From assembly GCA_030062745.1 (NCBI GenBank), contig CP099841.1:18231398-18295397 (forward strand): a stretch of DNA of 64,000 bases, read 5' to 3'. Shown piece after piece: positions 25,301 to 48,300 of the stretch (position 1 is the stretch's first letter; each line of letters begins with the position of its first letter). Origin of the DNA: Capitulum mitella (taxonomy: Eukaryota; Arthropoda; Thecostraca; Pollicipedomorpha; Pollicipedidae). The notes beneath the pieces are model-generated. The model had not been told where the DNA came from. It did no database searches and saw only the letters and a program-made list of their open reading frames with translations. A program made the position numbers and the translations under genes.

Positions 25301-28300
25301 GCTTAAGCGACTTGTGAAGGATGATTTTCAATGCATCGCCCTTTCCATCCAAGATCACATTCTCGCCTCAAAATTCTTCTTTTCCGGAGACTTTGTATTA
25401 GTTTTCACATGCCGACGCTTTTTCCTTAGCTGTTCGACCTGAAGAAGTTCCAACAGAACGTGAACCGGGAACTGAAACGACAGTACCCCGACCGGACACG
25501 TCTAGAGAACCAATGCATGACCTCGCTGGCCTTCGTCAAGAATGATGACGACCTCCTTAATTGCCCGTGCTGGGTACTCATCATCAACATCGTGGCTCTC
25601 GACATGCTCAAGGGCAAACTGATGCCAGGTGAGGCCAGACTTCACTCTGAGAATAAGCCGGGCGGCTGCTGCACGGATGCAGGGCCGGCGCCTCGGCTCT
25701 TGAGTTGGGAAAGGGGGGGGGGGGCAGAATCATTAGTTAGAATGGGGCCTCCTATTTGAAATGGGGCCCCTCTCACGGGGCATCCTAATTCATACAGGAA
25801 AATTTCCGATTCAGCAAAGGCCCTCTTTGTCCCAGATAGGGCCTCCTTTTCCGGAACAGAATAATCCAGAATGAGGGCCTCCTGATTCACGAAGTGAGCC
25901 TCCCGAGCCAGCAAAACGGCTTCCGTAATACAAAACCATGCCTCTATTCCTGATCCAGAGAAGGGACCACCTAATTCAAGACGGGGGCCTCTTGATCCGG
26001 AAAAGGGCCTCTTGATGCAGAAAAGGGCTCCTGAACCTGATTAAGGATCACGTAGCTCAGTTACTGGGGCCTCCTTTATCCGAATTTTGATGACATATAT
26101 CTAGGGGAGATTTGGGTAATATCGTCCGGTAGGGAATTTCGGACATCCTCACTTCTTCGCCACGGTTGGACTCATGTTCAAAATATTTTTTTTGATATTG
26201 ACAAGGATCCAATATCCATTTTCGCCGTGTTGTGCATACCAGAAGTTGCAGTTCCCAGGCGAATATTTTTTTCTTTGAATTCACCGTTTCCGTTTGTTAA
26301 ATTTTCAACTTTCTACCACCTGGCATTGAACACTCCACTGATAGAAGTGTGCGTAATTATCATATTACACTCTATTCGTGCATTTACTTGATTTTAAAAG
26401 TGGCTGCAAATGGCTGAAGCCGTCTGCCTCGCCATCATGCCGCATCTTTTAAGGCACCACCTTCCTGGTAATACTGGACACCATCCGATAATACCGGAAT
26501 ATCCGAAACCTGTGCTTTAATATGTGCAACGAAATGCATTTCTACAAAAAGTCATTTTTTAGTATTAGAAACGCGCAGTAGCACGTCAGAGCTGGCCAGC
26601 TGGCAGAAATATTACAACGAATCGACCAGGCAGCTTCTGGTGCCAGACGGCAGCAACAGCAGCGGTGACGCGGCAAGCCGACGGCAATAGCAAAGGCGTT
26701 TGAAGGCTGACATGGGGGTAAATATCTAGCTTGTAATTAGCCAAGGAAATTTCGGCTTAGCCTCAGCACCGCTTGTACCAGACATGGATGGGGTAAATTT
26801 GGACGGCCGTCTGAAATTACCGAGCGGTGTCCGGAATTACCTAGATTCAAAATTTATTTCAAAAATGACCGCAGCTAAAGGAATGCTCACGGCAGCGGTT
26901 AAACGGTCACATGTTAGATTTAAAGGTGGTCTTTTATTTGAATGGCCTCTGGTTGACTTGCGCCCATCTGGAAACTGACTACAACCGATTTTGGATAGGC
27001 GCGCGATGTTATCCGATTCTCCCCTAACTGCAAAACTTTCAGTTTGGGTGAAAGGGGCCCCCCAACCTTTTTTCGTTTTTGGGGGCGGGGCGAAAGCATA
27101 TTTTTGCTCCTCCCTGTCTGCAGGCAGGGAGAAATTGCCTCCTCCCTTCCTCCCCCCCCGTCCCGCCGGCCCTGCCGCCCGTGCACGGGTGCTCTTTATG
27201 GTAATACGAAAAGACATTTGGACTGTCCTGGCTTGAGTTTAGCGATAGCATGCTTCATGACATGGAAAAGATAATCAGCTTGGATGGATTCAGACCGTCA
27301 TGGGCGAAGGAACGGAGGGCGGGGGCCATACCCCCGCTTCTGGGAGAATTTAACATTATCCCTATGGAGAAAACGACTCTGTCCTCCCCACAGCTTTCTG
27401 GATGTCCTACGCCACTGCAAGCTGTATTGGTATTTCCGTTCATTTGCAGCTTCCTTGACCGTCCATTGTTTATTCAGCTCGCTGACTAATTTATGAAACC
27501 CCGAGGAGAACCACAACCTCGGTTCATTTGACTCGGACATGCTAAATTGAGCAACTCGCTGGCCTAACGCTCACGATGTTCGCAGCCAGTTTTTGCCACT
27601 CGCACGCCGTATTGAGTCTGTGTCGCAATCAATCCTTCGCTGTGAATTGTTCGTCGCCGGCTAGCCACCGCGGCTGACGGTACGGTTTATTTCAGTATCC
27701 AGTCGGCTGACGGTACGGTTTATTTCAGTTTCGATACCGCCCGCCGTCCCGGCGCCGGCGGGCCAGCGTACTCGGATCCAGATTCCAGACGAGGACCCGT
27801 ACAGCGTGGCTGGCTCGGGAGGCAGCTCGGGCTCCTCCGGCCGGCAGGGGCGCCCCGAGCGGCCGCCCAAACTGCCGCCCAGGGACACGGACCGGCCCGG
27901 CCGCAGGGACATAGTGAGTCGCCGGCCGCGGCCACACCGTCACATGTTCCAGCGGGAGGTCTCCTGGGTCGGGATTTAATGCCAAAAAAGAGCATAGCTG
28001 GTTTTGTTGTACGATTCGTCCACGTCAGGTTCAAGTTATGAGAGGTAATGTGGTCTGCCTACCTGGGACAAGCTTGTCGAACGCCGGTGGTCTTTGTCAA
28101 TAACGAATAAGATATCGCTCTAATTTGGAGACTACATTTCAAGTGCCTCGTGTGTTTGTTTTCGCCAAGGGCAACATACCCTTAAGTTGCTGTATAACCA
28201 TTTCAGACGGGGAAGACGAATTCACGGACTACATGGCATTGCATTTTGTATTCATGGGTAGGCGGAGTCGCGTGATGGTGCGATGCCCCAGTTTATTCGC

Positions 28301-31300
28301 TCATGTAGTTAGACAGTGGCCATCCACTGGAAATCAGCTGGCAGCCAAGCAGATTTTCCGTAACTTTCCATTAGACAAAAAACAAACATAAAACAGCGCA
28401 CACTTGCTCTTGTTTGTCTTGACTCGAGCTTGATCTCGTGACATTATCAATTATCACGTTTGCTGATTACTGAGGTTCAAAATCGCAAACTCGCAGCTGT
28501 TTTACAAGCTGCCAGTTGGGTAAAGTATTGGAGCCGCCTGTTCGGTGCGGCCACTGGCTCCACGCCGATCAGGTCTGTCCACTTTTTCTCGCCGAACTCG
28601 GAAACAAAGCGTGCCGGTGGCAGCCCGTTCTGCCGCCGTCAGCTGCGGCCGCCGTCTCGTGGCGCTCCGCTCTCTGCGCCGTCTCTGCGTCGCTCGCTGC
28701 CGGCGCCGGTCGGCGGCTGGGCCGGGACACCTGCCGCCGCCAGCCGACCAGCCCATCAGGCTATCCGCTCACGGGGGAAGGGCTTTTTGTGAAAGCAGAA
28801 ACCAGTCCGCGGCCGCCGACTGGCCTCGTCGATGCATATTGATGAGGGCGTCCGCCGGTGGAGTGGATGGGACCGCCAGTCCTCGCCCTACCTCCCGCTA
28901 TGCGTGTGCGTTTTTCTGGCCAACGACCCGGTCCGGGAAATGTGTGGGCAAGCGACGGGGCCCCTTCAGGTGCAACTCGTGAGTTATGCGTCGCATCGAA
29001 TCACCGACGCCCGGACAACGGTGGCACGCATCCGTCACACGAATCACGCAGCTTTGACGTTTGACAGGGACGGGGCTACCCAGCCGTACTGAAGGCCTAA
29101 CGGTCCCCTTCCGCTGGCCGGTTATGGTTCCGGCCGTATCTCCTGACCCAGATCAACCTGTCGCAACCGGCGCCAGCGCCTGAAACCCGCGCTGTGTCGG
29201 CAGGCGGACTACACAGACGACACGGATGACGCCGAGCCGACCCAGAACGGCGGCGTGAGCGGCCCGCGGGCGCGGCTTCAGTCTTCCAGGCCCAAAAACA
29301 AGAAGGACAGGAAGAAGGGCGGTAAGTCACCGGAATGCTGTTTCCCAAGGACAATCTACGTGATGGAAGTCGATTTCTTTGTGTTAGTGCTGTGTTGTTG
29401 TTTTCTGAGGCAAACATTCCGCGATGTATTTAACATCTCGGAGCGACTGGTGCAAGTTTCGTAGGAGGTTACTTTGTTTTTGGTTAGGTTAAACCACGTC
29501 TGTACTTCATGCGGTCATATATCTGGTGCGGCCGGCGCCAGCGTGAGTCAGCAGTTGTGGCGCCGCGGCCCCTCCGTCATCTCGCGCTGAGTCGCCTTCC
29601 GGCGGGAAAAACCTAGCCTGGGCCCCGGGCGAGGCCGGCCGAAGACCTGAGCGAGTGGTTCGACAAGATGACGCACTGGTGTCGGCGGCCGCCGCCCCGC
29701 CGCGCCAGGTTGAGCCCCGACCGCAGCAGAATTTCCAGAGCAGGGGATGACGGCGCTCCTGCGCCGGCCCGCCCCCTCGCGCCCCGTGCCGCCCGCCCCG
29801 TTGCCCGCGCGCGACTGGCAAACCGGGCAGTCTCGTTTTAACCGGTGGCGGCACGGTTACACCGGTACGATGTTGCCTGTTTCGGATGGCATGACGCTAC
29901 TTTCGTGCAGCGGCTAATCGGTTCTGTATTTTTGTGTTTCGAAATGCACTCATGTAGTTTTTCCTTTGCGCCGATAAGAAGTTTTCCTGCAGCTGTGCTT
30001 CCGGCTTTGTGCTCGTAAATATTGTTGTAAGAGCTCCTGTTTTTCATTTTTTGAGTAGGTTATGAATACCTTTCCTGGCCACCCTTTCTCCTTTAAACAA
30101 TAATGGAGTATTGTTAGACTATTGCTGTTTTTTCTTGGTATTACGAAAGGCTGATGATACCTATGCTCGGTTCTTCGCAGCAACGCAAAATGGCGCCAAC
30201 GCATGATGCCCGTTATATACTCCAAATACCGTGAAACAAGTCATCTGTGAACGAGTTCTGAATTAACCGCTGCACTGCCAGCTTGACAAATCTGGCCTCC
30301 GACGTCATAATGTAAACTAACTACATCTCTCGACTCAGTTTCCTGTCGTCTTTTCTTTTCCTCCGTGTTGACCATGTCGTGACGGAGTCGCCTTCCTCAC
30401 GAAACGTAACAAGAGCCGCAACGAGGTCGTAAACAAGCCCAGCGCCGGCGGCACCTTGTCCGACGCTTATCACCTCTCCGTACAGAGGGCCACTCCCACC
30501 CGCCTCCACCAGGCAATCCCCGCCCCATCCCTCACCAAAATAACGGAGACCCGAACGTCACGTTTGGTTCGCTGATCTGCGTCGTCTGAGGGGGGGGGAG
30601 CTATGGTACCGGGGGAGGCGTTATAGCCCTCGTCCACAGCGGCTCGTTGCTGTGACGTCACCGGCCACTGCAGGCTGAGCTCGAGCCCGATTTCGGCGCC
30701 GGAGACCTCGGTCAGAACCTGTTTTACTTTCACTGGGCTGTGGCGGGGGCGGTGCTGAGGCGGGCGGGAACGGGTCCCGGGCGGAGCGGGCAGGGGAGCG
30801 GAGTGGGAGTGGATACGCGAGTCGCGGCCGGGAGGCGGGCGGGAGCAGGAGACGCGGTGGGGAGTGGAGATGGGATGAATACCATTCGTGGATGGAGAGG
30901 AGGGAGGAAGTTGGAGACTCGGCGGGAAGTGAAAAGAGAGTGGACATCCTTCGTGGCTAGGGGGATTGAGGAGAGTGGGGTGCTTGGGATTCGGTGGGGG
31001 AGTGCAGAGAAAGTGGATACGAGTTACGGCGGCGAAGGGAGGCGAGAGGAGTGGAACGCCCCAGCCGGTTTTTGAATGTGGGGCTAGTCCCAAGCAAGTA
31101 TCATCGCTTGGTGACCCAATTTACTGCTCCCCGAGGACCATGTTTCAGAAAAGTGACTGATGGACATCCAGGACCAGGAAATTTGTGCAAAGGTCCAAAC
31201 CTGGCTTCAACCAAGAAATGCCTCGTTCGCTTTATATGCTGGGGAAGAACAATGACGTTTAATTAGGTGGACAGTAACGTGGGTAACGTGACAGGCTCTG

Positions 31301-34300
31301 ATCTATCTCACAGAACAACGGTCCAAACAACAAGACGAACGAATGTCTAGGTGTGTAAGAATTAAATGTGTGTAAGAATGTCATGCTTTAATGATGGTGG
31401 CCGATTAACCATGGTCATCATGTACGTAACCATCGGAGGAAGGGGGATGCCCTTCAAATTTTGGCAAAATGGGTCTTTGTCTCCCCCGGTGTCGGTCAAC
31501 AGATGAATGATTTTCGCAATGTCCTGCCGAAAAATGGGATTTTTGGCCAGATTGTCGGCGCAGGCTCTGACTCCACCCCCAATCCATCCTCAGTTCCTGG
31601 GACGTGGCTAAACCCATGATGATCATAATCATTCAACTGGCAGGCGCTTGTTTTTGAAAGTAGCATGGACTAAACGTCCTGACGAGGAACATCCCCCGCC
31701 TTGCCATTTGCCCGCCAGCGCGGACTCCAGCTCAGATAGCGCTTCAGGCCGCCTTTCCGACAGCTCCAGTGAAGAGCGAAACGCTGGGCGTGTTGGCGGC
31801 TAAGGCTGGTCGGGCCGCTTCCGCGGCCAGCTGGCTGACGGGACGTGGGGACAGCCAGAGGGAGAGAGGGGGAGAGAGCGGGGCAGATGACGAACAGCAG
31901 CGGCGTGGCTAACACCTGCCGGAGCCGATATACGGCCGGAGAAAGTTTGTTTTTCGGACCACCGTCCGGACACAGGACGCTGACGACGCTCTTCAGATCT
32001 GTGGGCTTGGCGATGAAAGGCTGTTGAAAAATGAAGTGTGGGACGGAGACGGTGCTTGAATATTCCCGTCATTTTTTGGTTTACTGATGGGGTTTATGAT
32101 TCAGTGACGACATTGATGGAATATTGGATGTCATGTGCAGCAGTATTGCTTTAGCGGTGGGCATCACCTGCGACTGTAAACAAGGTTTTGTTGGTAATGA
32201 TTCGTGTAATTGGCACTTGAACAAGGCAACATGGGAAAAAATGACGTTTCCAATAATAACTAGGCGCAAGTTTAATGGCCCGTAATAAAAGTGAGCTTTT
32301 GCCGGGGCTAATTAGGTCGCGGCAATTAAGAAAGATACCATGCAATGTTAGCTGCCTTACTGGATCGCATAGTATTTGTTCACAATGTGAAAGAAAAGAG
32401 CGGTAGATACCCGAAATCCTTCTTTAGTTTTTCCTTCAGGGAGCCGTCCCTGAGTCTGGCAAGAGAAGTGGCGTTGGTCACCTGTAATGCGTCACACGAG
32501 GTCACACGTGGTCGCACGTGGATGCTGTTTCATTTTATCTGAAGAGTTCCTGAAAAAGAAATTTGTCCGATTTCTCAAATTTGGTACCTTTAGGAAGGTT
32601 GCATTTTGCTTCCTGGTTTTCCGAGCAAGTATTGCTGCTGGCTGGCTGAGACCGGTGAGCTTGATATGAAGAAAACCACGAGTGCCAGTAGATCCTTAAC
32701 ACACTGCCTGAAGACGCCGACGGCCGCCATTTTATCCGTGATGGCGTTTAATTTGTGGCACGTGAGACCTTCTCTCAGCGGAGATCGGCGAAAGTGCGAT
32801 GTCTGGCGAAACGTCTTCCCCAGAACCATATTTGGAGACTGGAGGGACTCAGAGTGCAGACGGTATCGCTGGCGTTGGAACGAAACAATGGCGTCTCGGC
32901 TGTCCCGTTGTGGCGCAATATACAAAAGAGGCGAATCGGTAGAAGCCGTCGGTTGCCGATGCCTCATGCCACGAAGATATTCTAGCCTCTGTGGTGGGTC
33001 AAGAATCTGTACCGCGCGGCCGCCAGGCTGCGTACTCTCTGGTTGTGATGAAGGTTGAGATCCGTTTAGCCCCGCCAGGAACTCTGGATGTGCGACACTG
33101 TCCAGACGTGGTGATTTCGGGAGGGCGCCGGCGGCGGCGGCGGCGGCGGCCCGTGCAGGAGGCCAGCGGCCGGCCGGGGGGACCTTGAAGGTCGCTGTGG
33201 TCAGGTGCCGTGGGAAAATAGCGGCCTACGCCTAACGGCCGGGTCCGGTTCACCTTGCACCTACGGCCTTGTGACGCGGGACGATAGCGAATACCCGCAA
33301 GCGCGAAAAGAACGAGGACCCAAAAAGTCTAGACTAAGGCGTGATGCTTCGATGGCGCGACGGCTTAACGTCTGCCCCGCCAGACCAGTAAGCTAAGCCT
33401 GCTAAACCTGCGTAGGGGCGTGAGACCGACTCTGGTGGCGTGATTTCAGACGAGCTGTACTACGGAGGTTTCCAGGCGCGCATTCCCAACTTCGCCAAGT
33501 CGAAGCCTGCCAGGGAGGACCCGCGGGCCTACATGGCCGCCGGACCGCACGGCATGCCCGTGCCCCACCCGGCCATGTGGCACAGTCGCAGCTACGACAG
33601 CGGAATGGGTGAGGGCTGCATGTTTTGCGGTGCGCGACCCGCATTAAACAATGTGTACCTGTATCTAGTAAAGGCTCGTAACTTGGCTCGTGTCCAAAGC
33701 TCCGCAGCGCCACCAGTGCACATATGTCAGCGTGGTTTAACACGTGCTGAGCTGTTGCGAGGCTGCTGACTTACGTGTGTGTTGGTAAAGAGATGTCGGC
33801 TTTGCAGCGCGACGACTAGCGTTTTTTTTTTTAGCGTCAGTGCTTTAGGCTGATTTCGAATGCTTAAACGGGTAAACAAATTAGTTTTCTTCAGTGGGGA
33901 CCAATTATTAGACCGGTTTGATTCCACTGTCACAAAATCCACATTCCCGTCGAACGTATTTTCTGTGGCAGCATTGCAGGAATGATTCAACGCTGTTGTG
34001 AATCGTCTTATTGGAAACGTTAGACATTAACATATGTCTCACAGAATTGAGCACAATACTCCACAATGCTTCCTGATCTGAAAACTCGCCTAAGTTGTTT
34101 CAAACTGACACATTGAATCAAAGAAAACCTGTTTATCTCGTGCAATACGGCTACCACAGCGCAAACCCACGTCTGCCCACGTCTGTGATACGCGGAAGGG
34201 TGCACCATTGCTTTATTCACGTGCTTTCTCTCTCTCTCTTTTCTGTGTTACCCAGTGCATGTCGTGACTTGCGAGGGACGAGCACGCTGGAGATGGTGCC

Positions 34301-35304
34301 GTGCTGGTCAAAGCTGTCGGGCACTTGATCTGTTCTGTCAGACGGCACAAACAGCGGAACCAGCCGCTCAGAACCACTCCAGAGCAATGCGCCAGGTCAT
34401 GTCCGGCGATTCCACGTGACCCCTGCTGGACTAATGTCTGTTCTCGCCCTCACAGGACGCATGCAGTATGTGTCCATGCCTAACATCCACCGGATGTCCC
34501 AAATACAAAACCCGATGAATTTCGTTCAGCCCATGGCCTTGCATCAGGGTGAGTTGTAGGAGCGATTTTTTAGCACATAGAGTTAGACGGATAGCAAAGA
34601 AGATTCTAGTCGTCGCGCACTTAAACGTCTGTTTCCCTGAAGTTCATGTGTAGACTCTGCTTCATTAACATTAAATACTTTACATCTCCAATAATTTCTT
34701 TTTCAGCAACAATCCTATTTCATTAAACGCATGGTACGAAAAAATCGCTAGCATTCTCATTAGCAAGGCTGCACTATATGTCACATAAACTTATCCCGGC
34801 TTCTTTCTTAATAGTGGGACTGCGCAGAGTTACATGCTGATTGCTGCCCGTGCTTATTTTCTCTGCTGCTGTTCTCTTGATGCATCCCATGCAGACAACT
34901 TAGTATGCTGAGCTAGCTTTTAACGCCAAAACGCCTTTTTTCTCAGTTCTGTTCGATGTTTCCCCTGGCATCTCGCCTTGGTAGCGTGTCTGTTTTACTT
35001 TTCAGTCTACTGCTTGTTCTAACCTTTTATCTGTATCATACTGTCTTTTGGCTGGCTACTCTCTGGCGACGTGTCTCCTCCCGCTCTTCTCCCACCTTTC
35101 GGCTCCCTACTTCTATGTCTTCTCTATCTTTTCCCTCCCTCCACCCACTCACGTTTCCTCTCTCCATTTCCGCGTGTCTGCCTGCCGCTGACTAATTCCC
35201 TCGGCCCTTCTTCGCGCTGATGCGTTTCTGTCTCCGGTCCGGCAGCCGTGGACCGGGAGTGGGAGCACTATTTCAGAAAACAGCACGGCAGGCCCGTCAA
35301 ATAA
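12646..35304 (+). CDS. MH2-domain (Smad-like) protein of the Expansion/Rebuff family, ten coding exons
   Basis: Spliced gene: 12646-12756, 20032-20189, 23422-23494, 23864-24019, 25430-25628, 27729-27913, 29204-29321, 33450-33608, 34456-34548, 35246-35304. All borders are GT/AG and all phases agree, giving about 436 aa. Residues 1-37 open with MVSRRRILSRSRDDLN, a signature I recognise from Drosophila Expansion. Residues 38 to about 232 form an MH2 domain (DEIWAKII, ERNRRVAKAYAR, GLCGFDNP, KRLAKSNVFV, LFDLKKFQ, CWVLIINIVALDML). There is no MH1 DNA-binding domain and no C-terminal SSXS motif, so it is not a receptor-regulated Smad. The tail is low-complexity (Gly/Ser, Pro/Arg, Lys) with a WHSRSYDSG motif. 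Drosophila Expansion and Rebuff are cytoplasmic proteins needed for chitin deposition and tracheal tube shape. I cannot tell which paralogue this is. Alternative 3' exons lie downstream. Confidence 0.9.
15991..16140. repeat. 52-bp minisatellite, about 2.9 copies
   Basis: Units beginning CAGGCTGT start at 15991, 16043 and 16095, exactly 52 bp apart. Each contains GTCCTCC, GGATCCG-like and CCTCTCTATG blocks with a few substitutions. The last unit is truncated. It lies inside a GC-rich part of intron 1. Confidence 0.85.
16273..16320. repeat. Alternating GC tract (GCGCGGC repeats)
   Basis: About 48 bp made almost only of CGCG and GGCGCG units. Long alternating purine-pyrimidine GC runs are the classical sequence type that forms Z-DNA. 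It is flanked on the right by several hundred bases of CpG-rich sequence. Confidence 0.8.
17579..18797. mobile_element. Foldback or MITE-like element with 17-bp terminal inverted repeats
   Basis: The first 17 bases (17579-17595, ATTAACCCTATTCCCGG) are the exact reverse complement of the last 17 (18781-18797). Just inside each end is a G-run/C-run foldback around GAATCCGCC (about 17598-17624 and 18729-18757). The 1.2-kb interior is AT-rich, has no transposase frame and contains many AGGTCA half-sites. This looks like a non-autonomous DNA element. No clear target-site duplication is visible. A possibly related sequence lies at 43660-44160. Confidence 0.65.
18237..18249 (+). promoter_or_regulatory. 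Perfect DR1 nuclear-receptor motif within the foldback element
   Basis: AGGTCAAAGGTCA at 18237-18249 is two AGGTCA half-sites in direct repeat with a 1-base spacer, the consensus bound by RXR/USP- or HNF4-type receptors. Other half-sites lie close by (near 18212-18230 and 17925-17945). It sits in an element inside intron 1, so whether it acts as an enhancer is unknown. Confidence 0.3.
19620..19745. repeat. Degenerate (TCTG)n microsatellite
   Basis: A pyrimidine-rich stretch of TCTG/TCCG tetranucleotides. Part of a longer polypyrimidine region (about 19555-19860) ending some 170 bp before the exon 2 acceptor. It makes a long artificial frame of Cys, Leu, Ser and Val residues that is not a gene. 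Confidence 0.85.
20032..20189 (+). CDS. MH2 gene, coding exon 2 (start of MH2 domain)
   Basis: Encodes residues 38-89: DHIREVLAKW, DEIWAKIIVFERNRRVAKAY, VLTIHGSD and GFDGS, plus two bases of the next codon. The WAKI and NRRVAKAYAR blocks open the MH2 domain of this family. Acceptor GTTCCAG at 20031; donor AA|GTAAGT at 20190 leaves phase 2. Confidence 0.92.
20190..23421 (+). other. MH2 gene intron 2
   Basis: No exon recognised. Holds GC blocks at 21480-21890 and 22980-23420, a three-copy CCGGTA hexamer run near 22103-22120 and a CA/TA microsatellite. Confidence 0.6.
22221..22305. repeat. (CA)n(TA)n microsatellite
   Basis: A run of ATACAT-like units passes into an uninterrupted ACAC tract of about 20 dinucleotides and then a TATA tract. 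Simple-sequence repeat in intron 2. Confidence 0.9.
23422..23494 (+). CDS. MH2 gene, coding exon 3
   Basis: One base completes a Lys codon, followed by 24 codons: IGLCGFDNPLRDPKVEEVKRYI and GA. GLCGFDNP is a family-specific part of the MH2 core. Acceptor CGTTTCAG at 23421; donor GCG|GTGAGT at 23495 leaves phase 0. The frame runs open upstream and downstream of the exon, but that sequence is GC-biased and not conserved-looking. Confidence 0.92.
23864..24019 (+). CDS. MH2 gene, coding exon 4
   Basis: 52 codons: GVKVKMDNEGNLMVKRLAKS, NVFVRYANGENAVGSDILKL, then PQAALEANKGLA. Covers the central beta strands of the MH2 domain. Acceptor TTACAG at 23863; donor GCG|GTAGGT at 24020; phase 0 on both sides. 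Intron 3 (23495-23863) is short and shows nothing else. Confidence 0.92.
24020..25429 (+). other. MH2 gene intron 4
   Basis: AT-rich apart from a GC-richer patch at about 24665-24960, which contains the unexplained open frame listed separately. It ends in the acceptor TTTTTCCTTAG. Confidence 0.6.
24675..25001 (+). CDS. Unexplained coding-like open frame in intron 4
   Basis: An open frame of 108 codons plus stop, with no ATG, bounded on the left by TGA at 24672-24674. Part of it has protein-like composition: LTDPKKRQRLEQHRKIAR, TAEKVGVPDYISKRDK, then an Ala/Pro-rich stretch (AAATSAPAAPDMPGPSGG). It would insert between residues that are normally adjacent in the MH2 domain, and I see no good donor in the right phase. 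More likely a fragment of another gene or a transposon protein than an exon of the host gene. A minus-strand frame overlaps it (24621-24899). Confidence 0.15.
   Translation, partial: GQGGAGFCFVVWHGLTDPKKRQRLEQHRKIARSTAEKVGVPDYISKRDKAAATSAPAAPDMPGPSGGRLARVSRHGLMSCGCGDLCAIRQRWSVPGSLSNVNHRSAVR
25430..25628 (+). CDS. MH2 gene, coding exon 5 (end of MH2 domain)
   Basis: 66 codons plus one base. Starts LFDLKKFQQNVNRELKRQY, continues PDRTRLENQCMTSLAFVKND, then LLNCPCWVLIINIVALDMLK and GKLMP. Contains the C-terminal helix and strands that close the MH2 fold. Acceptor CCTTAG at 25429; donor CCAG|GTGAGG at 25629 leaves phase 1. Confidence 0.93.
25629..27728 (+). other. MH2 gene intron 5
   Basis: Contains a degenerate tandem repeat just after exon 5, G/C-run patches at about 27050-27180 and 27300-27340 that resemble foldback repeats seen elsewhere in the window, and a duplicated splice acceptor at its end. 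No exon recognised. Confidence 0.6.
25733..26090. repeat. Degenerate tandem repeat of GGGCCTCCT units
   Basis: At least ten copies of a core close to GGGCCTCCTGATCCAGAAAA, spaced about 20-35 bp and strongly diverged. Preceded by a G-run at about 25707-25724. Starts about 100 bp into the intron. Likely an old satellite-like array or the tail of a dispersed repeat. Confidence 0.6.
27671..27729 (+). repeat. Exact 26-bp duplication carrying a second splice acceptor
   Basis: CGGCTGACGGTACGGTTTAT followed by TTCAGT occurs at 27671-27696 and again, identical, at 27704-27729. Both copies end in a usable 3' splice site (TTTATTTCAG). The two acceptors are 33 nt apart, so use of the first adds exactly 11 codons to exon 6 without a stop. 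Confidence 0.9.
27729..27913 (+). CDS. MH2 gene, coding exon 6
   Basis: Two bases complete a Val codon, followed by 61 codons: SIPPAVPAPAGQRTRIQIPD, EDPYSVAGSGGSSGSSGRQG, then RPERPPKLPPRDTDRPGRRD and I. This is the linker after the MH2 domain. The IPDEDPYS segment is conserved-looking; the rest is Gly/Ser- and Pro/Arg-rich. Acceptor at 27728, or alternatively 27695; donor ATA|GTGAGT at 27914 leaves phase 0. Confidence 0.88.
27914..29203 (+). other. MH2 gene intron 6
   Basis: Contains a GC block at about 28540-28900 whose open frames are composition-driven on both strands. No exon recognised. Confidence 0.55.
29204..29321 (+). CDS. MH2 gene, coding exon 7
   Basis: 39 codons plus one base: ADYTDDTDDAEPTQNGGVSG, then PRARLQSSRPKNKKDRKKG. 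An acidic segment is followed by a Lys/Arg-rich one. The start is uncertain: AG at 29202-29203 is used here, but AG at 29175-29176 would add nine in-frame codons. Donor GGCG|GTAAGT at 29322 leaves phase 1. Confidence 0.8.
29322..33449 (+). other. MH2 gene intron 7 (4.1 kb)
   Basis: Contains a GC block at 29520-29850, a G-rich purine stretch at about 30740-31040, an E-box-like triplication near 32490-32520 and a CGG repeat at 33128-33150. A 150-codon frame at 32606-33058 is open but has no motifs and no splice context. No exon recognised. Confidence 0.55.
33128..33150. repeat. (CGG)n trinucleotide repeat
   Basis: About seven CGG units in the middle of a short GC-rich patch in intron 7, some 300 bp before exon 8. 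Confidence 0.8.
33450..33608 (+). CDS. MH2 gene, coding exon 8
   Basis: Completes an Asp codon, then 52 codons: ELYYGGFQARIPNFAKSKPA, REDPRAYMAAGPHGMPVPHP, AMWHSRSYDSGM, plus one base. The YYGGFQARIPNF block resembles YFPGLRVRVPSF in the alternative exon at 39056, suggesting exon duplication. Phase 1 at both ends (159 nt), so it can be skipped without a frameshift. Acceptor ATTTCAG at 33449; donor ATGG|GTGAGG at 33609. Confidence 0.9.
33609..34455 (+). other. MH2 gene intron 8
   Basis: No exon or repeat of note apart from a T-run near 33823 and a short CT-rich tract near 34228. Confidence 0.6.
34456..34548 (+). CDS. MH2 gene, coding exon 9
   Basis: Completes a Gly codon, then 30 codons: RMQYVSMPNIHRMSQIQNPM, NFVQPMALHQ, plus one base. 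Met/Gln-rich tail segment. Phase 1 at both ends (93 nt), so skipping preserves the frame. Acceptor CCTCACAG at 34455; donor CAGG|GTGAGT at 34549. Confidence 0.88.
34549..35245 (+). other. MH2 gene intron 9
   Basis: Becomes strongly pyrimidine-rich over its last 300 bases (about 34930-35190), which gives a long artificial frame. No exon recognised. Confidence 0.6.
35246..35304 (+). CDS. MH2 gene, terminal exon A
   Basis: Completes an Ala codon, then VDREWEHYFRKQHGRPVK and TAA at 35302-35304. The short REWEHYFRKQ block looks like a conserved C-terminus of the family. Acceptor CCGGCAG at 35245, phase 1. Downstream, ATTAAA at 35800-35805 is a possible polyadenylation signal. Confidence 0.85.
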
Positions 35305-35390
35305 GTAGCCTAGATCCGCCCCCTCCCGCGCCCTCTGTAGTCTTCCTCGGCTAGGTAAGACGACTGCCCGTGGTTTCGCCCGTGCTTGAC

Positions 35391-35443
35391 TGACCCTACA
35401 CGACCCGACCTGATCTGACCTGACCTGACCTGACCTGACCTGA
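35391..35443. repeat. (TGACC)n pentanucleotide repeat
   Basis: Five perfect CTGAC/TGACC units flanked by imperfect ones (CGACC, TGATC). It starts about 90 bp after the stop codon of terminal exon A, so it would lie in that 3' UTR. On the minus strand it reads as tandem AGGTC half-sites. Confidence 0.85.
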
Positions 35444-35882
35444 GCTACTTGGCCCAACCTGGCCCGAAGGTATGATGAACTGAACTCGACTGGAACAGTA
35501 ATTGATGAGTACTTATTTGTGGTAATGGTTGCGGCCACGATAAATCTATTTTCGCTCTCTCCGCAAAACTCGCATCGTTAGCAGGCCACATTATGCAGAC
35601 GTGCAGTACAGTTTTGTGAAGGTTTTTCAGTCAGATTTTTGCATAAACTACGGAAAAGTGTCGTTGTTGATCACGAATCTTCACCACTTTCCTTTCCGTT
35701 TTCCTCGCATATCTTCTTGCTAAAGCACCTTGCCGTGATATTCTCATGCAAACTTAACATCCAACTCCTAGCCGTTTGGTAGTGCCAAGCGACACATAAA
35801 TTAAACCGACTCCGACAATACACATAACTGAAAGTGAAACACACCGACTGGACAATGAACGGCGACGCTGCACATGCTAAAT

Positions 35883-35912
35883 GCATCCCGGGATGTTCGC
35901 GCGTACGCGCGA
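35883..35912. repeat. Two adjacent perfect palindromes
   Basis: CATCCCGGGATG (12 bp, 35883-35894) is followed two bases later by TCGCGCGTACGCGCGA (16 bp, 35897-35912). The second is mostly alternating purine-pyrimidine. Function unknown. Confidence 0.75.
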
Positions 35913-36695
35913 GCCTAAACTGCGACCGCCTGGCATGCGACTGTGGCCGACCGAACTGCTGGCCTTGTGTGCTGGACGCTGGTAGCCGCCTGCCGGGCCG
36001 TCAATGACGCGACCTTGACACGCTTTTGACCGGACTTGGACCATGAGGTACGTGACTCTGTCGACCGCACGGACATCGTTCGCCGGGGTGGGCTGTAGGA
36101 GGGTCGCTAACGTGCTAGACCGATCTAGTACAGATCGCTTGATTCTTTGTGCTTTGGAGACGTCATGATTGGTTAGCTGACGAAATCTGCAAGGCCATTT
36201 CGGTAGCTCGTCTGATGGCATTTTGTCACGGATTTTGAGGAGGCAAATGTTTTTTGTGTTGTTCGGTGACAGCCTTGTTTACGTCTAATTAGGCTGTTTT
36301 CGCATCGTGAATGGCAGCGGAAGGTGGTCCATATGGGTGTAATGGATTAACGACATTTAGACTCTTGAAGAATGCACATGTAAAACGCCTCATTGCTGTT
36401 CACTTGTCTTTAAGATTAGAATTATGGCACGTTTTGGTACGATCCGTACAGACGCTTCGACGTCCCCGTCACTGCTTTCCGGTAATTTAACGTCGCTTTT
36501 TGCAAAGTAATCCGTTCGATTTTAACACTGCTGCTTTCATTTCACAAGTCCCAGGTTCTCTGATCTTGAACATTACCTTTTCACCGTGCTTGGACCAGAA
36601 ATCATGATTCAAAGTGCAATTGCCTGTACGTTACGAGCCAGTCAGCACATCCTGAACCTTGACGGCGGCATTCAAACATTAACCACTTCTTTCAG

Positions 36696-36811
36696 AGATG
36701 GACAAGGCCGAGTCACCCTACAGTCGAATGCTCAACTGGAACCCCATTCACGGCCGGCTGCCGCCTTCCTTCCAGCAGCGGCGCGCCATGTATGTCTCCA
36801 ACTGGCAGTGA
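36696..36811 (+). CDS. MH2 gene, alternative terminal exon B
   Basis: Strong acceptor (CTTCTTTCAG at 36695), then AG completing a Glu codon and 37 codons: MDKAESPYSRMLNWNPIHGR, LPPSFQQRRAMYVSNWQ, stop TGA at 36809-36811. The entry phase is the same as for terminal exon A, so it can be joined to exon 9 instead (about 455 aa) or to exon 7 or 8. It has protein-like composition with three Trp/Tyr-containing blocks. AATAAA at 37900-37905 is a distant possible polyadenylation signal. No transcript data, so its use is inferred. Confidence 0.7.
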
Positions 36812-39055
36812 GACGACTGTGGCGCGTGCGCGGCGGTCGAGCTTCCCTCACTGATGGGGAGAGTGGGGCGGACAGACTTCTGTTCCCGGACGGTGCCGAC
36901 GCTGGCTCGATGGACGCCTGTAGCTGCGACGCAGCTTCGCAGCCTTTGCTGCAACTAACGACAGCGGAGGCCCGACCAGCGGGCGATTGTGGCGTGTTCG
37001 GATCGTCGGCGCTGTCAGGCACGAGATGTCTCCGAGAGCCTGTGAAGAGACCCTTCAGAAGTCGGCTTGTTGGGTGGGGGCGCCGCGCCGCCGCCTCTCG
37101 CGAGCCATCTCGCGTTACCAGTGTAACGACGCTTGCCTGTCACGTGTTGTTTTTGTTAGGGTTAAGTCTTCCGGATTTCTATGTCGAGCCGTGCGACGCG
37201 GGGAGGCCGAGTCTCCGCGTGATTATCGAGACGTGATTAGCGAGGCGTAGCGGCGAAGGAGTCTGAGTTGTGATGATTGTGGGAGGGCCGGGCGCCGAGG
37301 GGAGGATCTTTGTCGATGCTCCTCTGACAGTCAGACCTTGGCGGTACAAACGCCTGCTGTAGGCGTGGTGTTCGCAGACCCACGTGAGCCTTTAGTCTGC
37401 CTTCTGCAACGAGCCGAAACTGATATTAACTCAGCTCAGTATACGTAAGACATACCTGCGTTCAGTATGGAAACAGGCTCAATGTTTTTTTGGGAAAATA
37501 AGGTTTGCACTATCCAGCGGAATCTTTCCTGTTTCGCGTAGTGCGGAGCAAAACGTCAGGACCTCGTCTGGATGTTACTTGAGAACTGAAATGTTTGGGT
37601 CATATATTGATACAGTGAAGGAATAGTTCATTAGTTTTTCAGACGGCGATTTGCTCTTACAATTTCTGCTTGTCTAAAGATACTCAAGCACACCTTTGGT
37701 ACCGAAAGATTGCCATCGTCTTTTTCCGTACCATATTTTTTTCCTCCAAACAAAATGTTCTGCGGCGCATTCTTGGCTCGCCAGAAAAAATGTGAACTTC
37801 TCGGCAAGTATACCGACCACTTTGTTGCACATGTGCCTTACGAGCTGTTTCCTTGTATGACGTCTGTACTGATGTGTGGTATAATGCGTGTACGCACATA
37901 ATAAACAAAAGTTGGCCTAATTCGTCGTTACTGGCACTAACACAACACGTAAGCATGTGTGTACGAAATCCGGTCCACAGGTAAGCCATTGTTCTATAAA
38001 ACGTTTGTGAGTACCGTTGACATTTTGGGTTAGATATGGGGTGCGTGCGAGGTGTAGTACTGGACCAGTTTTTGCGTTTTACCGAGGTGTAGCATGTGGT
38101 GACAACATCGGCGTAAATCCTTTTTCATTGTTATGTAGCGAAAGCTTAACAGTTCCAGCTGACCTGTCGACAGAACAGCGAGCACCGAGCCGACTCGAGC
38201 CCGTCTCGCCAGACCCGTCTGCTCAGACTGGTGCTCTCGCAATCGAGCTGCCGTCACCGTGAAAACTGTTCCTCAACAAATAACGTTTACCTGTCATACC
38301 AGAGCAAGCGTGACTTAAGTTTGCACACATGAGCTAATGATAAGGAACGGCAAGGCTAAACATCACCACCTTCCAAAAACTTCATCTGGATGGTTTGACA
38401 GACTGATGTTAGTGATCGGAGCCCGTGCTAAGCAGAGCCTGTCGCATGGACTCCGACCTCTTCACCCGATCACTCGATGCCAGGTGACGGCTGATTTTTG
38501 TGGCGAAATGTGAACGTCCCGCTGAAGGTGCGACGCGGCCACACAGTAGTCAGCTTGACCCTATTTGGGCCACTTATTTTTTCAGTTTTTAAGTTTCCGG
38601 AACCTTTGTCCCAAGACACTCATCTTTGAGGATATTAGATGATCAGCTTACAAAAATCAGCTCACGTTCAAAGCCACCTTAGTATGCACATGACATCCAA
38701 TAAAGCAGCTTGACATTCTTGTTAGGTTAGCACACGTCGCTTCGAAACGAACCGACTTTTTTATGTTCTTAACACAATGAAATTGTTACTGCATTGAAAT
38801 AAAAAACACCATCAAAAGGAAAGTTTGCCTTAGAAATGACGTTCACTTCTGTGGTCCATATGGCTGATTGTAGTTTTTAATAGTATGTAATATTTTATCG
38901 TAAAGAAGCACTGGTTCTCACTTCGGTGTAAGTGATTGTTCTTCATCCTTATCACAGCGACGGTAAAAGTGTGCGAAAACAAGTCGTTATGCGTGACTGC
39001 TTGTCTTATTTGGGTTTGTTGCATGAGTTTCGCTTACCCGAGCACTTCTTCCCAG
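36812..39055 (+). other. Intron or 3' UTR between terminal exons B and C
   Basis: No exon recognised. AT-rich from about 37430 onward. The frame open through 36586-37236 is in a different frame from exon B and is not supported. Confidence 0.55.
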
Positions 39056-39657
39056 ACGACCCGTACTTCCCGGGCCTGCGGGTGCGCGTGCCGAGCTTCC
39101 GCGGCGCCGAGCTGCCGCCGGAGTTCGAGTCGACCTACGCGCTGCTGCCGCTGGACCCGCGCCTCGCACCTCGCCGCCTCGACCCGCGGCGCGCCTCCTG
39201 GAGTCGCCTCGACTCGGAGCCGGAGCCGGCCGCGATCGGGCGGGCGCCGCGCAGCCGCGCCCGCTCGCGGCGCCGCTCGCAGTCGCGCGACGCGCGGCCG
39301 GTGCGCATGTTCTCGCCGCCTCCGGTCCGCCTGCTGAGTCCGCCAGCGCTCCCGGCGAGTCCGGCCCGCGGCCGGCCGGCAGCCGAGCGCGCGCTCAGCC
39401 CCCGCCCGGACCGCGACCGCGGCGCGCCGCCGCCGCGCGAGCGAGCTTTCAGTCCCGGCCGCGCGGCGGCGCCACCAGCGCCGGGGGCGGCCGCAGAGGG
39501 CGTGCACGTCTGCGGCCGGCCGGCCAGCCCGACGGCACCGGCTGAACGCTTCGTGGAAGCGATGAGGGAGAAGTTTGAGGGTGCGCGCCTCACGCGAAAA
39601 GTCAATAAAAAGGAAGGGACAGAGGTAGAGAAGCAGACAGTGAAGGGACGCGACTGA
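39056..39657 (+). CDS. MH2 gene, alternative terminal exon C (proline/serine/arginine-rich tail)
   Basis: Acceptor CACTTCTTCCCAG at 39055; two bases complete an Asp codon, then 199 codons to TGA at 39655-39657. It opens DPYFPGLRVRVPSFRG, similar to exon 8 (ELYYGGFQARIPNF), and enters in the same phase, so it could replace exon 8 after exon 7 (about 533 aa) or follow exon 8 or 9. The rest has repeated SP-containing motifs (MFSPPPVRLLSPP, RALSPRPDR, RAFSPGRA) in an Arg/Pro/Ala background, partly driven by GC content, and ends in a charged helix-like stretch (FVEAMREKFEGARLTRKV). It could instead belong to an adjacent paralogue. A donor-like GAG|GTGCGC near 39578 might shorten it. Confidence 0.65.
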
Positions 39658-40538
39658 AAGGTGTTGAGGTGAGACTGGCGTCTGTTGTCACGTCTTTTAA
39701 ATACCGATGACCATCTCCAGTGAGCCAACTGCTCTTGATGTTTTATAATTGCTCAGATCATAACGAGTAGGTATTAGCTGGTTTTGAGTAGTGAATTAGC
39801 TGGTATTGTTATCTGTGAAGCATGAATAGATTATTAAGATTTCTCGAGGCAGTCATCAAAGTCTTTCTGTTGCGCCAGACCATTGTTCCTGAGTTCCAAC
39901 TTCGACAGTTTCTTGCCCGTAAAAAAGCAGGATCTAACCCCATGGAAATCCCACTAAGATGGCATAATTGTGGAATACTCATCCCATTTACGTGCTATGG
40001 CAGTTGTTGGTTTACAACAGAGCAAAGGGTTATTTTCAAATGATGACTGCTAAGCGACAATGGACATCACCTTTGGCTACATAATGATCGCCTTTAACCT
40101 GGTCTGCCATAAGTTTTGGTATACTTTCTAAAACGTTTTTGAGCTCGAAATCATACCACTTAATTAGGATGATTAAGTCGGAGAAGGCATTGATGACGAT
40201 GAAACCATAAATTTGTAACATGATGGTGTTTATAAATATCGTCCATCGTTTTGAACAGATTATCACATAATTCCTGCCGAGTTTTCTTGTCAGACTCAAA
40301 AAGGCTTTTCTCAGGGATCTTCCTTTAAACTTTTATATATACTACATCCAAGTTTGCATTATGGATGTCTCTGGCAAAACATGGTTCCGTGACAATGAAT
40401 TAACATTGTTTGCCACCCCCCGGATCAAAGCGTTCATTATTCTGTGCGTCTTTGAGACCCACGCACGTATAACATGTAGGAACGTTCTTCTGAACGTTTT
40501 ATTCCAGCTGTATGGTATGGTCAACACATTCTTATATC

Positions 40539-40577
40539 GGTAAAGACCCATCACTATGTCAAGCATGGGTCTTTACC
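40539..40577. repeat. Perfect hairpin, 13-bp arms and 13-nt loop
   Basis: GGTAAAGACCCAT (40539-40551) and ATGGGTCTTTACC (40565-40577) are exact reverse complements. It lies between convergent genes. It is not followed by a T-run and is too short for a typical microRNA precursor. Confidence 0.75.
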
Positions 40578-43500
40578 CTATTAAGCCTACGCGTCAGTAA
40601 AGCGTTTTGTTGACGTTGTTTGCCAGCATTGATTAGCGACGGATGCTCTATGTTTATTGCTCTATGCTCTATGTTGGTGACTTGCTCCATGTTAATGCTG
40701 ACCGATGATGACGGCTTTGAAGAATCTGTGTTACGGCAGTCGTTATGCTGGGTGTTTGCTTGCTTTGCAGGTTATTTCACGACTGTACCGCGTGACCTCG
40801 TGGATAGCAGTTCTTTCCCGTGGTCAGTGATCATGAAGATCGTAGCCTGTTTGTGTTGTACAGACTATCGCGTTTTTATAAGTGCTTAGTGTTGCTAAGT
40901 GCAGGGACTGGCGGGCGATTTGGTGTATGTTCTTTGTTCAATCGCGTCGTTACTATCTGCCAGTGACTGTCGTGTGTTCCTTTAACATTTTTGCCACCGT
41001 AAGGGATGGGTAGAATAGGCCAGAAAATAATCTATTTAGTCGCAGGAAGCAAGTTGTTTACCGGAGTAGCAAAAAGGTATGCACAATAATCAAGCGATTG
41101 AACGTGGTGGGCCTGTGTTGTAAATCGCAACCTCGTGGGATTTCCTGTAATAGAAAAGTTATTTCTTGCTCTTCGGTAAACGAGAACGAAACATTTGTTA
41201 CCTAGAGAACCGAAACGCTGCCTCTAGTGAATCTCTTCAAGAAAAACTCGGTTTGGAACATCGAACACATGTAGGTACTAATGTGTGATATACGTACTAG
41301 TCTTCACAAGCAGATACTATTTTCAGCAGGCTAAGTTCAGGAAGTTTTCTTGTTTTCGAGCGACATTTAATTAATCCTGTTTCATCAAAACCAAAGATAG
41401 GTCCAGCCAGACATTTTTAGAGGGGCTAAACGGCTTGCGGAATCGTGGCATTGGCACCGTAAGCAAATATACGACGTTAGACATTTAAAACATCAGCATT
41501 TGCTATCTTTTGTGTGCCAGAAGGTAGGCTGAGAGCCCTCTTTTGCTACATCTTTATAAACCATTAATTTGAGACCATGGCTGGAGACCATGAGAAGCTG
41601 GGTGTGGCGAGACCCGCAATATTAAGATATATCACATTGGGCATATGGCAATGATTGGAAAAAACCGGTATGCATTCTTATGCAGACCCCCCCCCCCCCA
41701 CTCGTAATAATTTCCGAAAATCTCCAGCCATGTTGAAGGTTATGACCCATTTCGACCCTTCGGCCTCAACTGCTTGTCAGGGTGTTTTGTGCGGTCGAGG
41801 GTGTAAACAGGTCGTGGTGTGGGGCAAGGTTTATTCTCACTTTTGTTGCGTCAGAAGATGGTTTTTAAAGTCTGAGTCCCAATCTGTGCACATATGTTGC
41901 CGGCATCACCGTTACATTATCGTTACATCGCAGCAACTCAGGCATATTCACTTTAATGACAATGAGGCGTCGGTGCCATCTCAAACAAAACGTTTATTCT
42001 GATGGAATGCATGCGCTGAAAGCAGAAAGCCTTAAGACATACAATTGAAACTAGCATTCCTCCTCTCCCCACACGCACACACTATCTCTCAACACAGCCG
42101 TTCTTTCCTTCCCTTCACTCGATGTCAGCTTGCGCCGCTTGCCGCCAGCCTAAAAACTGACTCAAATTCCGACATCTACCTTCAGCCAATTGGAAACATG
42201 GCAGCTATCGATGCGATCAAGATTGCATCTTCAGATATGAAAGATGAAATCAAAATTTATGGAGAGAAATCAAGACTCAAAACACAACAGTACTGAACAT
42301 AAGCCTTCTTCGTGACTTGTGTTCTGTTGCGACCCATATGATGCACAGAAATATTGTGCCGAAACTCAAAAAAAAAATCCGGGTTATTTCAGCAGGATTT
42401 ATCGACATCATAATAAAGTAGCCCAGGCCCTCCAATGACTGTCAAACAGGCCAAATCGCCGTGCCCCAACAAGGAATGCAGTTTTTGGCCCCATTGACCC
42501 GTTTCCGCTAGCCGGCTTTAGAGCCAGATCAAGATCTGCCCATTCTTACCCTCCTCCTCCTCCTCCCTGTCGTCCTCCTTCTCCGAGATCTTTGAAACGT
42601 GCGGTGACTTTACTACAAGACGTTTTAGAAACATTATTAGGGGCGTAAAACGACTCAACGCCGAAAAAATTACGACCATACTGGTGTGGGAAACGACAAA
42701 AAGAGGCGTCACAGTAGAAAAGCGGCTTCACACCTTCCTCTCTAAACAGGTCCTTATCAGTAGACAAATGCCGTAAATGAACGTAATCAAAGGTTTGAGC
42801 TATACTTTAGCATTCAAGGGTTCATTATTGTAGTCAATTACGAATTTCACAAGGTACGCCTGTTGCTTACGTTCCTAACGTTCGCTTTTATTGCCGAAAT
42901 TCAGTTCCCTGAGTCCTACACCAGCATAACAAAACTGTTTCAAGGTGCTGCAAACATGCACGAATCGCGCAGTAATATACAATTTCTGTCATGAAATGGA
43001 CTGCAGTTTTTGACGTTCCAAAAAAGTTGCACAGCATACCGTGTTTGGTTTTCTGACCCATTCGTGCCATCATTAAACTTATCATTGGGAACAGAAATGC
43101 ATGGAAAATTTGAACTAAACACGTGAGAAGCGACTACTGCTCTGATGACGTGCGGGCACTGTTTTCTGTTTTGTCCCCAGTTTAGCCCGCTACAGCAATG
43201 GCAATAATTGCGCTTCACGCTGCTTCATTTGGACGAAGACGAATCACGTATCGTTCTGCTTTTCGTCGGTACTTGCAATCGCGTTTGTAATAATAATACA
43301 CGGCGCCCACGTCAGGCGAGTCGAGAGACTGCATTTCAACAACGGATAAAGCAACAATGGCATTCCCAACAGTCGATAAGTGCAGCCTTAAAATACAGAC
43401 AATAAATGAGAACATATGAACAGTTAAAACGGCTATAAATCTAGCATACAGATTAACATGGCGTGATGCTGACATGCACAATATAGCAGGAATGCAAGTT

Positions 43501-45386: not shown

Positions 45387-48300
45387 CTGCAAACGAAATC
45401 AGTCAGAAGGCGTCAGTAATAAATATCTAGTTCCGCATGTCTCCTTTCCCTTTCTCACCGTTTCCCACCCCTCTTCCACCCATTTTCTTCACTGGCCTTA
45501 CGCGTCTAAATTCGAAATTACGGGGAGGGAACAGTCAGAGACAAAAGGAGATAAATGGGGAAATAGACGGAGGGGGATAGGGGGGAGGGCGTGAGAGAGA
45601 GAAAGAGGGAGGGAGAGATGTGGCCAGATCCGATATCAAAGAGCCACCTGTGCCTGTGCAGCACTGACATAGAGGGGTGCGTGATGGATTCCATCACGGC
45701 TGCTCGTGAAGCCATAAAAGAAGAACGTGCGTGATAAAAGGCTCCCAATCGAGGCATGCGAGCACCCAAATCAGTATCGAACCAACAAGAGCTAGGTCAT
45801 GATAATGTGCTTTTTGCAAGCACACTACATACTCTGTAATCGAAAGCTATCCACTCGATAGTAACATGAAAACGAGATGCTGGACTCATCACATTTTAAA
45901 TACCCAGATTTTTCTCGCCAGACTACTCCGCCGCTAAAAATAGATATAACAAGGTGACGAAGACAGCGGAAGGCTGAATTATAAACCACTGCGTTTTACA
46001 ATTCAGCATATATACGGGGCGTGCCAGATCTAATGGCGCATGACTTGAAATGAAAAAGGAAACTCGTCGTTTGAATCTTAGACCACGAAATGCAATCAGA
46101 GAAAAAGAAACGTAATTCAAGTTTGAAGTACGTATCACAAAAAACAAAGAGGAACAATGAAACGTAGTTACATGGACTATTTCTTAATGTCTTTCAATAC
46201 TATCAATATCTCAGCCATGAACACACCTGCCTCTACTGGCTACATGATGCATCGCGCGCCATTAGTATTTTCAAGACCCCAAAACAATTCTTCATCTGGT
46301 AAACACCACAGCATTCCCCGAATCGAGTAGCCCCCACCGTGCAGGCCTGGTGTTGTCTCGTGAGCCTCTTACCGGCGCCAGTCCGGGACACTCGTACACA
46401 GTGTGCTCGCTCTCCTCGTCCGAGTCCGTATCTGACGGCGAGCCCTCGCGCCGGCCGAGCGCCCTCCTGCGGCACCGGGCGCACAGCCGTCAACGACGGC
46501 CACAGGCTCGGTACGACGCCCGCCAACGCGGCCAGAGGCTCGGTACGACACCCGTCAACGGCGGCCACAGGCTCGGTACGACACCCGTCAACGGCGGCCA
46601 CAGGCTCGGTACGACACCCGTCAACGGCGGCCACAGGCTCGGTACGACACCCGTCAACGGCGGCCACAGGCTCGGTACGACACCCGTCAACGGCGGCCAC
46701 AGGCTCGGTACGACACTGGCCAACGCGGCCACAGGCTCGGTACGACACCCGCCAACGGTGGCCACAGGCTCGGTACGACACTGGCCAACGCGGCCACAGG
46801 CTCGGTACGACACCCGTCAACGGCGGCCACAGGCTCGGTACGACACTCGCCAGCGGCGGCCACAGGCCCGGTACGACGCCCGCCAACGGTGGGGACACGT
46901 CCGCCACCTCGCTCATCAACGATGGGGACGGACTCGGCGCTGCACCAGCCAACGGCGGTTACAGGACTCGGTACTGTACCTGCCCATGGCCGTGAGCAAC
47001 TGTCGCTTCCGTCAACTGTTGTGGACTCGGGTATTCCAGCACCAAGATATTTGTTGCCGCCGGACCAAGTCAATGTCCACAAAGACGACAAAAGATTAGG
47101 ACCAGCACGTACTCGGATTCTTGCAACATCTGAACACAGCACAGTTCCTCGAATACTGCGATATCAAGGATGCGACATGAGGCGTGACAAAGCCGCTGGT
47201 AAAGCACACATCCCATCATCATCATCCCAATCGGCTTTGGACGGCGTGTTGTAATGAGATTTTCTCCTATTCACTTCAGACATTAAGCATAATGACTGTT
47301 TTTCGCCAGCGCGTGTGAATGTGCGCTATGCGTGTCTGAGTTCGCCAGAAGCATCTGTACGCCACGCTTTGCACGCTTTTCCGTCTTTCCAGACTGTCTG
47401 TAATCATTGCAGTATTTTTACAGAAGAAGCTCAAGCTAGCATGCCTCTGCATTGCCAAAACCTGAAAGCTTCCAAACAGGTGAATAAACTCAACGATGGT
47501 CCTTCCTGTGCGTAGTCTAAGACGTCACAATGTTGTTGACGAAAATCATGTTGAAATTACCGATGTGAGACTATTTTTGTTTTAAGGACATACAAAAACG
47601 CGAACATCGCGCCTCATAAAACGCAAAGAAGTCATCAGAACTCTATGCAACATCACTATCCCAATAGACAAAACATTCGTGATAAATGTCAACAAATTTT
47701 TGTAACTACTCTCCGTGTCACATAAAAATTCGTGGTGATTCTCGTTCCTTCTGCGTTCATATACTATGACTGAACACGTCTTTTTAAGTTTGACCTATTG
47801 TTCAAGAAGCTTGCACATCACCCAATCGAGAACTCTAAAACAGTGCAATCCCTAAAGCTTTCAAGAAAGCAAATCACGGACCACGATTTCTTTATTATTC
47901 ATTTTTGCGGCCCGGCCGGTTAAACCATGCACCACCCCGACATGCTAGCATGTTTTCCCCCGTTCTGAACCCATCTAGCTTGTGAACAAAGAAGATTCGT
48001 GCACGTGCGCAGGTGTGCCGGCATTGTCTCCCAATATTGTCAGACTATCTGCCGCAGTGCAAAGCGCAAAAACGATGCCGTGCTACTTTGGAGGCTCACA
48101 GTTCACCTACTATGCCACGACCCGCCGAAAGTTCATTGAACTACTTCCGAATGTAGCGCACTCGAGGAAAAACGCTATCTGCAGACGATAGTGCACGCGA
48201 ACTTTCCTCAGTCGAAGTGACGAAAAACCTGCCTTTAAGGGCCAAGTGTCTTCCATATGCTCCGTCCATTATTTCGATACCATCCCGTCGCTAAAATGTC

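Follow-up and report, generated by a model that had tools for sequence, protein, structure and literature searches.

In Drosophila, chitin deposition requires Expansion and Rebuf along with the chitin synthase Kkv, and chitin translocation depends on the N-alpha-MH2 domain, according to the portions of two reports drawn on here (PMC4305360, PMC9894549); the first of them also describes short and long isoforms of exp (PMC4305360). In the passages of PMC9894549 that deal with conserved motif 2 (CM2), the motif consists of eight well-conserved residues followed by nine less conserved ones and supports apical localization of Drosophila Exp. Deletion of CM2 reduced apical accumulation of the protein, while the overexpressed protein stayed active, and the same passages propose that CM2 brings Exp/Reb to the apical membrane and call for cleaner mutants (PMC9894549).

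Here we describe an Expansion/Rebuf gene in a window of 64,000 nucleotides of the Capitulum mitella genome (contig CP099841.1), in which two versions of CM2 open separate 3' exons behind a single MH2 core. The family itself is known, but the presence of two CM2 versions among alternative 3' modules seems to be new, as no report of such an arrangement was found in the open-access literature searched.

An Expansion/Rebuf gene with a modular 3' end

One plus-strand gene spans positions 12630 to at least 39657 of the window, and its exons 1 to 9 join in phase. The MH2 domain is encoded by exons 2 to 5 (Pfam PF03166, E = 3.3e-31) and occupies residues 16 to 182 of a 418-residue model protein built without exon 1, in which Pfam also gave a sub-threshold IRF-3 match and found no MH1 domain. 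When solved structures were searched with phmmer, the top match was 4r9p (E = 2.3e-87), while the best Smad, the Smad1 MH2 domain, reached 1e-06; the part of PMC4388265 consulted identifies 4r9p (RE28239p) as the N-alpha-MH2 domain of Drosophila Expansion. The first coding exon, found by comparing window open reading frames with those of a paralog on contig C2, runs from the ATG at 12646 to 12756, starts with MVSRRRILSRSRDDLNL, ends in phase 0, and is kept in the C2 copy; the outer edge of exon 1 (12630 to 12756) is an acceptor read by eye. Exons 1 and 2 together match 4r9p from its first residue (E = 4.5e-47), so the helical extension ahead of MH2 is present. Exon 2 (20032 to 20189), where the N-alpha-MH2 domain starts, is 100% identical to its C2 counterpart, and exons 3 (23422 to 23494), 4 (23864 to 24019), and 5 (25430 to 25628, the phase-1 end of MH2) are also found in the C2 copy; all four match 4r9p. 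With the structural match, the Pfam domain, and the N-terminal extension in agreement, the predicted gene is an Expansion/Rebuf (Exp/Reb) homolog, which bears out the identity suggested in a preliminary description of this DNA. Neither the window nor the 50 kb read on C2 yielded more than one set of MH2 exons, and searches for relatives of MH2 exon 5 gave 95 pattern matches in prokaryote genome contigs and 31 in viral contigs, none of which was confirmed.

Exon 6 (27729 to 27913, kept in the C2 copy) encodes a linker containing PPKLPPRD, which by eye resembles a proline-rich motif. Within 27672 to 27728, reading by eye shows two occurrences, at a spacing of 33 nt, of a 24-nt sequence with TTTATTTCAG at its end, which would give exon 6 two possible in-frame acceptors (before 27696 and before 27729).

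The modules downstream share one reading phase. Exon 7 (29204 to 29321) ends with codons for KNKKDRKKG plus a single G, in phase 1, and its donor (GCG/gtaagt, after 29321) would be common to the 3' modules. Exon 8 (33450 to 33608, 159 nt), which carries CM2a (DELYYGGFQARIPNFAK), and exon 9 (34456 to 34548, 93 nt, kept in the C2 copy) both begin and end in phase 1, with donors after 33608 (TGG/gtgagg) and 34548 (AGG/gtgagt). Exons A (coding part and stop, 35246 to 35304), B (coding part and stop, 36696 to 36811), and C (39056 to 39657) also begin in phase 1. Acceptors precede 33450, 34456, 35246, 36696, and 39056, and several of these in-phase acceptors lead to a stop of their own, as expected of alternative last exons. 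Exon C encodes CM2b (DDPYFPGLRVRVPSF), an Arg/Ser- and Ser-Pro-rich tail, and an end motif, ERFVEAMREKFE, before its stop. The splice coordinates, phases, and exon lengths given in the preliminary description are therefore those we find; its tail lengths of 18, 37, and 199 aa agree with the frames and become 19 (A), 38 (B), and 200 (C) residues when the split codon is counted. Searches returned no Pfam family for tail C and no Rfam family in 28000 to 41000. When homology was sought among exons 6, 7, 8, 9, A, B, and C, with a gapped score reached by at most 6 of 300 shuffles as the cut, no pair passed in both copies; exons 8 and C passed in the window only (1 of 300 shuffles), and exons 6 and 7 passed in the C2 copy only (5 of 300).

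The paralogous copy on contig C2

A search of the genome (477 Mb in 16 contigs) gave a weak MH2 match at C2:4389697-4389858, and the 50 kb around this match was read. It contains a paralog whose exons 1 to 9, A, B, and C follow the order and junction phases of the window copy, including phase 1 after exons 7, 8, and 9 and before exons 8, 9, A, B, and C. This shared set, order, and phasing argues that the tails are real coding modules rather than chance open reading frames, and the presence of the whole set in a second copy lends good support to the earlier claim that A, B, and C encode protein. Exon C of the paralog runs 240 residues to its stop. When the entire genome was searched with exon C, one of the eight matches was its own locus, two (3.6e-9 and 2.2e-7) were parts of the C2 copy, and five had E values of 0.9 or more. 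At the DNA level, the matches between 27 and 42 kb of the window and the paralog are exons 6 to 9, A, B, and C plus one element in intron 7; besides these there were only cross-matches, within the low-complexity exon C and, once and off target, from exon 6.

Comparison of the copies, whose pooled dS is 0.71, reveals where the protein is constrained. In the MH2 core, pN/pS was 0.02 for exon 2, 0.18 for exon 3, 0.08 for exon 4, and 0.04 for exon 5, and it was 0.39, 0.42, and 0.43 for exons 6, 7, and 8. Exons B (0.47, interval 0.25 to 0.83) and C (0.72, 0.58 to 0.90) followed, while the intervals for exons 9 (0.52, 0.26 to 1.13) and A (0.52, 0.13 to 2.24) both include 1; of the 19 residues of A, 13 are identical in the two copies. 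Constraint on the 3' modules is focal. There are no nonsynonymous differences in 17 codons of CM2a (the first 17 of exon 8), in 14 codons of CM2b, or in the last 14 of B (SFQQRRAMYVSNWQ), while exon C outside its motif has a dN of 0.49 and a dS of 0.76.

The pair is one of several. Eight other MH2 loci were fetched, and they form four reciprocal best pairs, each on different contigs (L001/L005, L002/L004, L003/L006, and L007/L008), so that with the Exp pair there are at least 10 MH2 loci in five pairs, counting best-scoring candidates only. Pairs of this kind are what a large or whole-genome duplication would be expected to leave. Parts of two published studies describe an ancient whole-genome duplication in barnacles, with paralog Ks peaks at 0.8 and 1, and report 16 chromosomes and assemblies of 463 to 512 Mb for Capitulum mitella (PMC8416341, PMC11331182). 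The pooled dS of the Exp pair was obtained by a method different from that behind the published peaks; we infer a whole-genome duplication as the origin of the pair. The predicted tail set predates the duplication of the Exp/Reb gene.

The conserved element inside intron 7 (30653 to 30843) is 66.7% identical over 198 columns to intron 7 of the C2 copy (E = 8e-14) and may act as an enhancer, as an internal promoter, or in splicing. Both copies contain TGACGTCA and TCAGAACC-GTTTTACTTTCAC within it, and GTTTTACTTTCAC was considered as a candidate Blimp-1-like site. The exact match to GTTTTACTTTCAC is unique in the window, but with up to two mismatches there are 3 matches versus 1.66 expected, and the identification is offered as a side note only. 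TGACGTCA occurs five times in the window versus 1.09 expected, a count reached in none of 100 shuffles.

Several observations concern the surroundings of the gene. On the minus strand, NPDC1-like open reading frames lie at 46316 to 46489 and 51064 to 51264 (PF06809, 2.1e-8 and 8.2e-4, the second below the Pfam cutoff), and DNA blocks of this region recur, conserved and in the same orientation, next to the C2 copy, which suggests that an NPDC1-like gene on the other strand is a conserved downstream neighbor of both copies. A dispersed repeat at 17579 to 18796 has three matches, at 77 to 95% identity, in the 50 kb read on C2; a tandem repeat at 46483 to 46889 consists of about 12 copies of a 33-base unit; and open reading frame pieces on the minus strand at 57396 to 58155 resemble, by eye, the C-terminal part of a retroelement reverse transcriptase.

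Two versions of conserved motif 2 and their possible splicing

The CM2-deletion primers given in a portion of PMC9894549, translated by hand, read NKKY (GKSDKGKDNKKY), eight residues, RARVPN, three residues, and SGKPIP. At the exon 7-8 junction, the window reads KNKKDRKKG-DELYYGGF-QARIPNFAK-SKP, with spacing equal to that of the fly primer translation, and by this measure the gene has the CM2 behind a basic stretch that characterizes the family (PMC9894549).

The start of exon C, DDPYFPGL-RVRVPSF, is a second version of the motif that was missed in the preliminary description. Scored against CM2a (DELYYGGFQARIPNF), it reaches 42 with 6 of 15 identities and ranks second among the 127,912 six-frame 15-mers of the window, where exon 8 itself ranks first and the third scores 21. 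Shuffled versions of exon C reached 42 in none of 20,000 trials anchored at the first residue and in none of 3,000 searched anywhere, the largest score being 38. In each locus, exons 8 and C are picked up by a profile built from the four CM2 sequences; the profile's sole other match above 18 scores 18.8 and lies in the C2 copy. Past the first 15 or so residues, exons 8 and C have no convincing relation (1 of 300 shuffles attained the gapped score of the window pair, and in the C2 copy the pair failed the cut).

Exons 8 and C, which carry the two CM2s, complete one and the same split Asp codon after the basic end of exon 7; this favors a switch at this point, and on balance we consider it probable that this Exp/Reb gene switches at exon 7 between CM2a and CM2b forms. 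As we infer the splicing choices and their effect on the protein, the 3' end would act as an alternative C-terminus switch with one phase-1 donor, that of exon 7, and several phase-1 acceptors. One path would run through exons 7, 8, and 9 with CM2a and end in the 38-residue B tail (exons 1 to 9 plus B, 455 aa by arithmetic), or in the 19-residue A tail if the stop-bearing exon A is included (436 aa). The other would lead directly from exon 7 to C (exons 1 to 7 plus C, 533 aa), replacing exons 8 and 9 and putting CM2b at the place of CM2a behind KNKKDRKKG, with the Arg/Ser- and Ser-Pro-rich tail to follow. The MH2 core would keep its chitin-export activity in all forms, the manner and site of the protein's anchoring at the apical membrane would depend on the choice of CM2 version and tail, and the Ser-Pro sites might be phosphorylated in the C form only. 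A more far-reaching proposal, which we advance as a tentative possibility, is that Exp/Reb genes of this lineage encode CM2a and CM2b as two localization modules selected by splicing from a single phase-1 donor, that the choice between them sends the export core to different apical sites or molt stages, that the CM2b form is under proline-directed kinase control, and that both modules were kept after gene (perhaps whole-genome) duplication.

The preliminary description had the tails joining freely to any of exons 7 to 9. Phase does permit this, as joins of 8 to C and 9 to C are also in frame and exon 8, a multiple of 3, allows joint use of both CM2s. Exon C placed after exon 8 or 9 would yield a protein with both CM2s (by arithmetic 543 or 617 aa, the latter from exons 1 to 9 plus C), a bivalent anchor and not a swap. 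Phase 1 throughout the modules permits such a protein, but the registers of CM2b and CM2a behind exon 7 agree only when C directly follows that exon, and we regard the two-CM2 protein as doubtful. Register favors the join of exon 7 to C, and C spliced straight from exon 7 is, on this evidence, the most likely arrangement.

Another possibility is that A, B, and C are ordinary alternative terminal exons with their own poly(A) sites, freely joined to exons 7 to 9. The in-phase acceptors and stops found in both copies agree with this view, as does AATAAA or ATTAAA downstream of A and B in both copies, although such signals are too frequent to weigh much. Against it, both copies have a donor-like site a short way past the stop of A and another past that of C (after 35354 and 39668 in the window; 14402 and 21681 in the C2 copy), and neither copy has one after the stop of B. 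Start points would have such a site by chance at a frequency of 0.059 (window) and 0.087 (copy) at the A distance and 0.022 and 0.027 at the C distance, for sites that lie at non-aligned positions between the copies and were scored with a generic matrix. From the C stop to 42000 in the window there is no AATAAA or ATTAAA, again a signal too frequent to weigh much. We find three ordinary terminal exons improbable; the in-phase acceptors with stops stand, while A and C are perhaps not 3' terminal as had been proposed. The donor-like sites are instead suggestive of a stop-bearing cassette in the case of A and of a coding end followed by a spliced 3' untranslated region in the case of C, and B, with AATAAA downstream at 37900 in the window and 17997 in the C2 copy, fits a plain last exon.

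That C or B lies outside the gene, as a separate transcript or a chance open reading frame in GC-rich DNA, is very unlikely: C is indeed GC-rich and of low complexity, its pN/pS indicates weak constraint outside the motifs, and an in-frame ATG lies upstream of C in both copies, but the two ATGs differ in place (26 and 3 codons before C), and the C2 copy retains, at the pooled dS of the pair, the open frame, acceptor, phase, and CM2b as well as a ERFVEAMREKFE-like motif at the C terminus. C as the last exon of another gene was rejected on CM2b, the conserved acceptor, and the C2 copy, and a separate gene with its own promoter, which the preliminary description named as what would overturn its reading, is unlikely for C with a family CM2 at a phase-1 acceptor kept in both copies.

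Relation to known systems

A natural gene with two CM2 versions, present in two copies, offers ready-made swaps for asking what CM2 contributes to the place, timing, and amount of chitin export, and the two conserved versions show which residues stay fixed. The question that such swaps would serve is how Exp/Reb acts on chitin synthase at the apical membrane.

The gene shares the MH2 domain with Smads (R-Smads and Smad4), as seen in PF03166 and the Smad1 match, but its MH2 is N terminal with the Exp extension and without an MH1 domain by Pfam, in contrast to the Smad order of MH1, linker, and C-terminal MH2. It resembles genes with mutually exclusive duplicated exons in that one motif opens two exons of identical phase. 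However, exons 8 and C are not the homologous exons of similar size expected in such genes: they differ in length (159 versus 602 nt) and have no more than about 15 residues in common, exons 9, A, and B lie between them, and use of both stays in frame. With Drosophila Expansion (CG13188) and Rebuf (CG13183), the gene shares an N-terminal N-alpha-MH2 domain with its MVSRR... extension and, judging from the primers in the cited part of PMC9894549, a basic stretch followed by CM2; compared with these proteins, the Capitulum gene has two CM2 versions in separate 3' modules and three tails.
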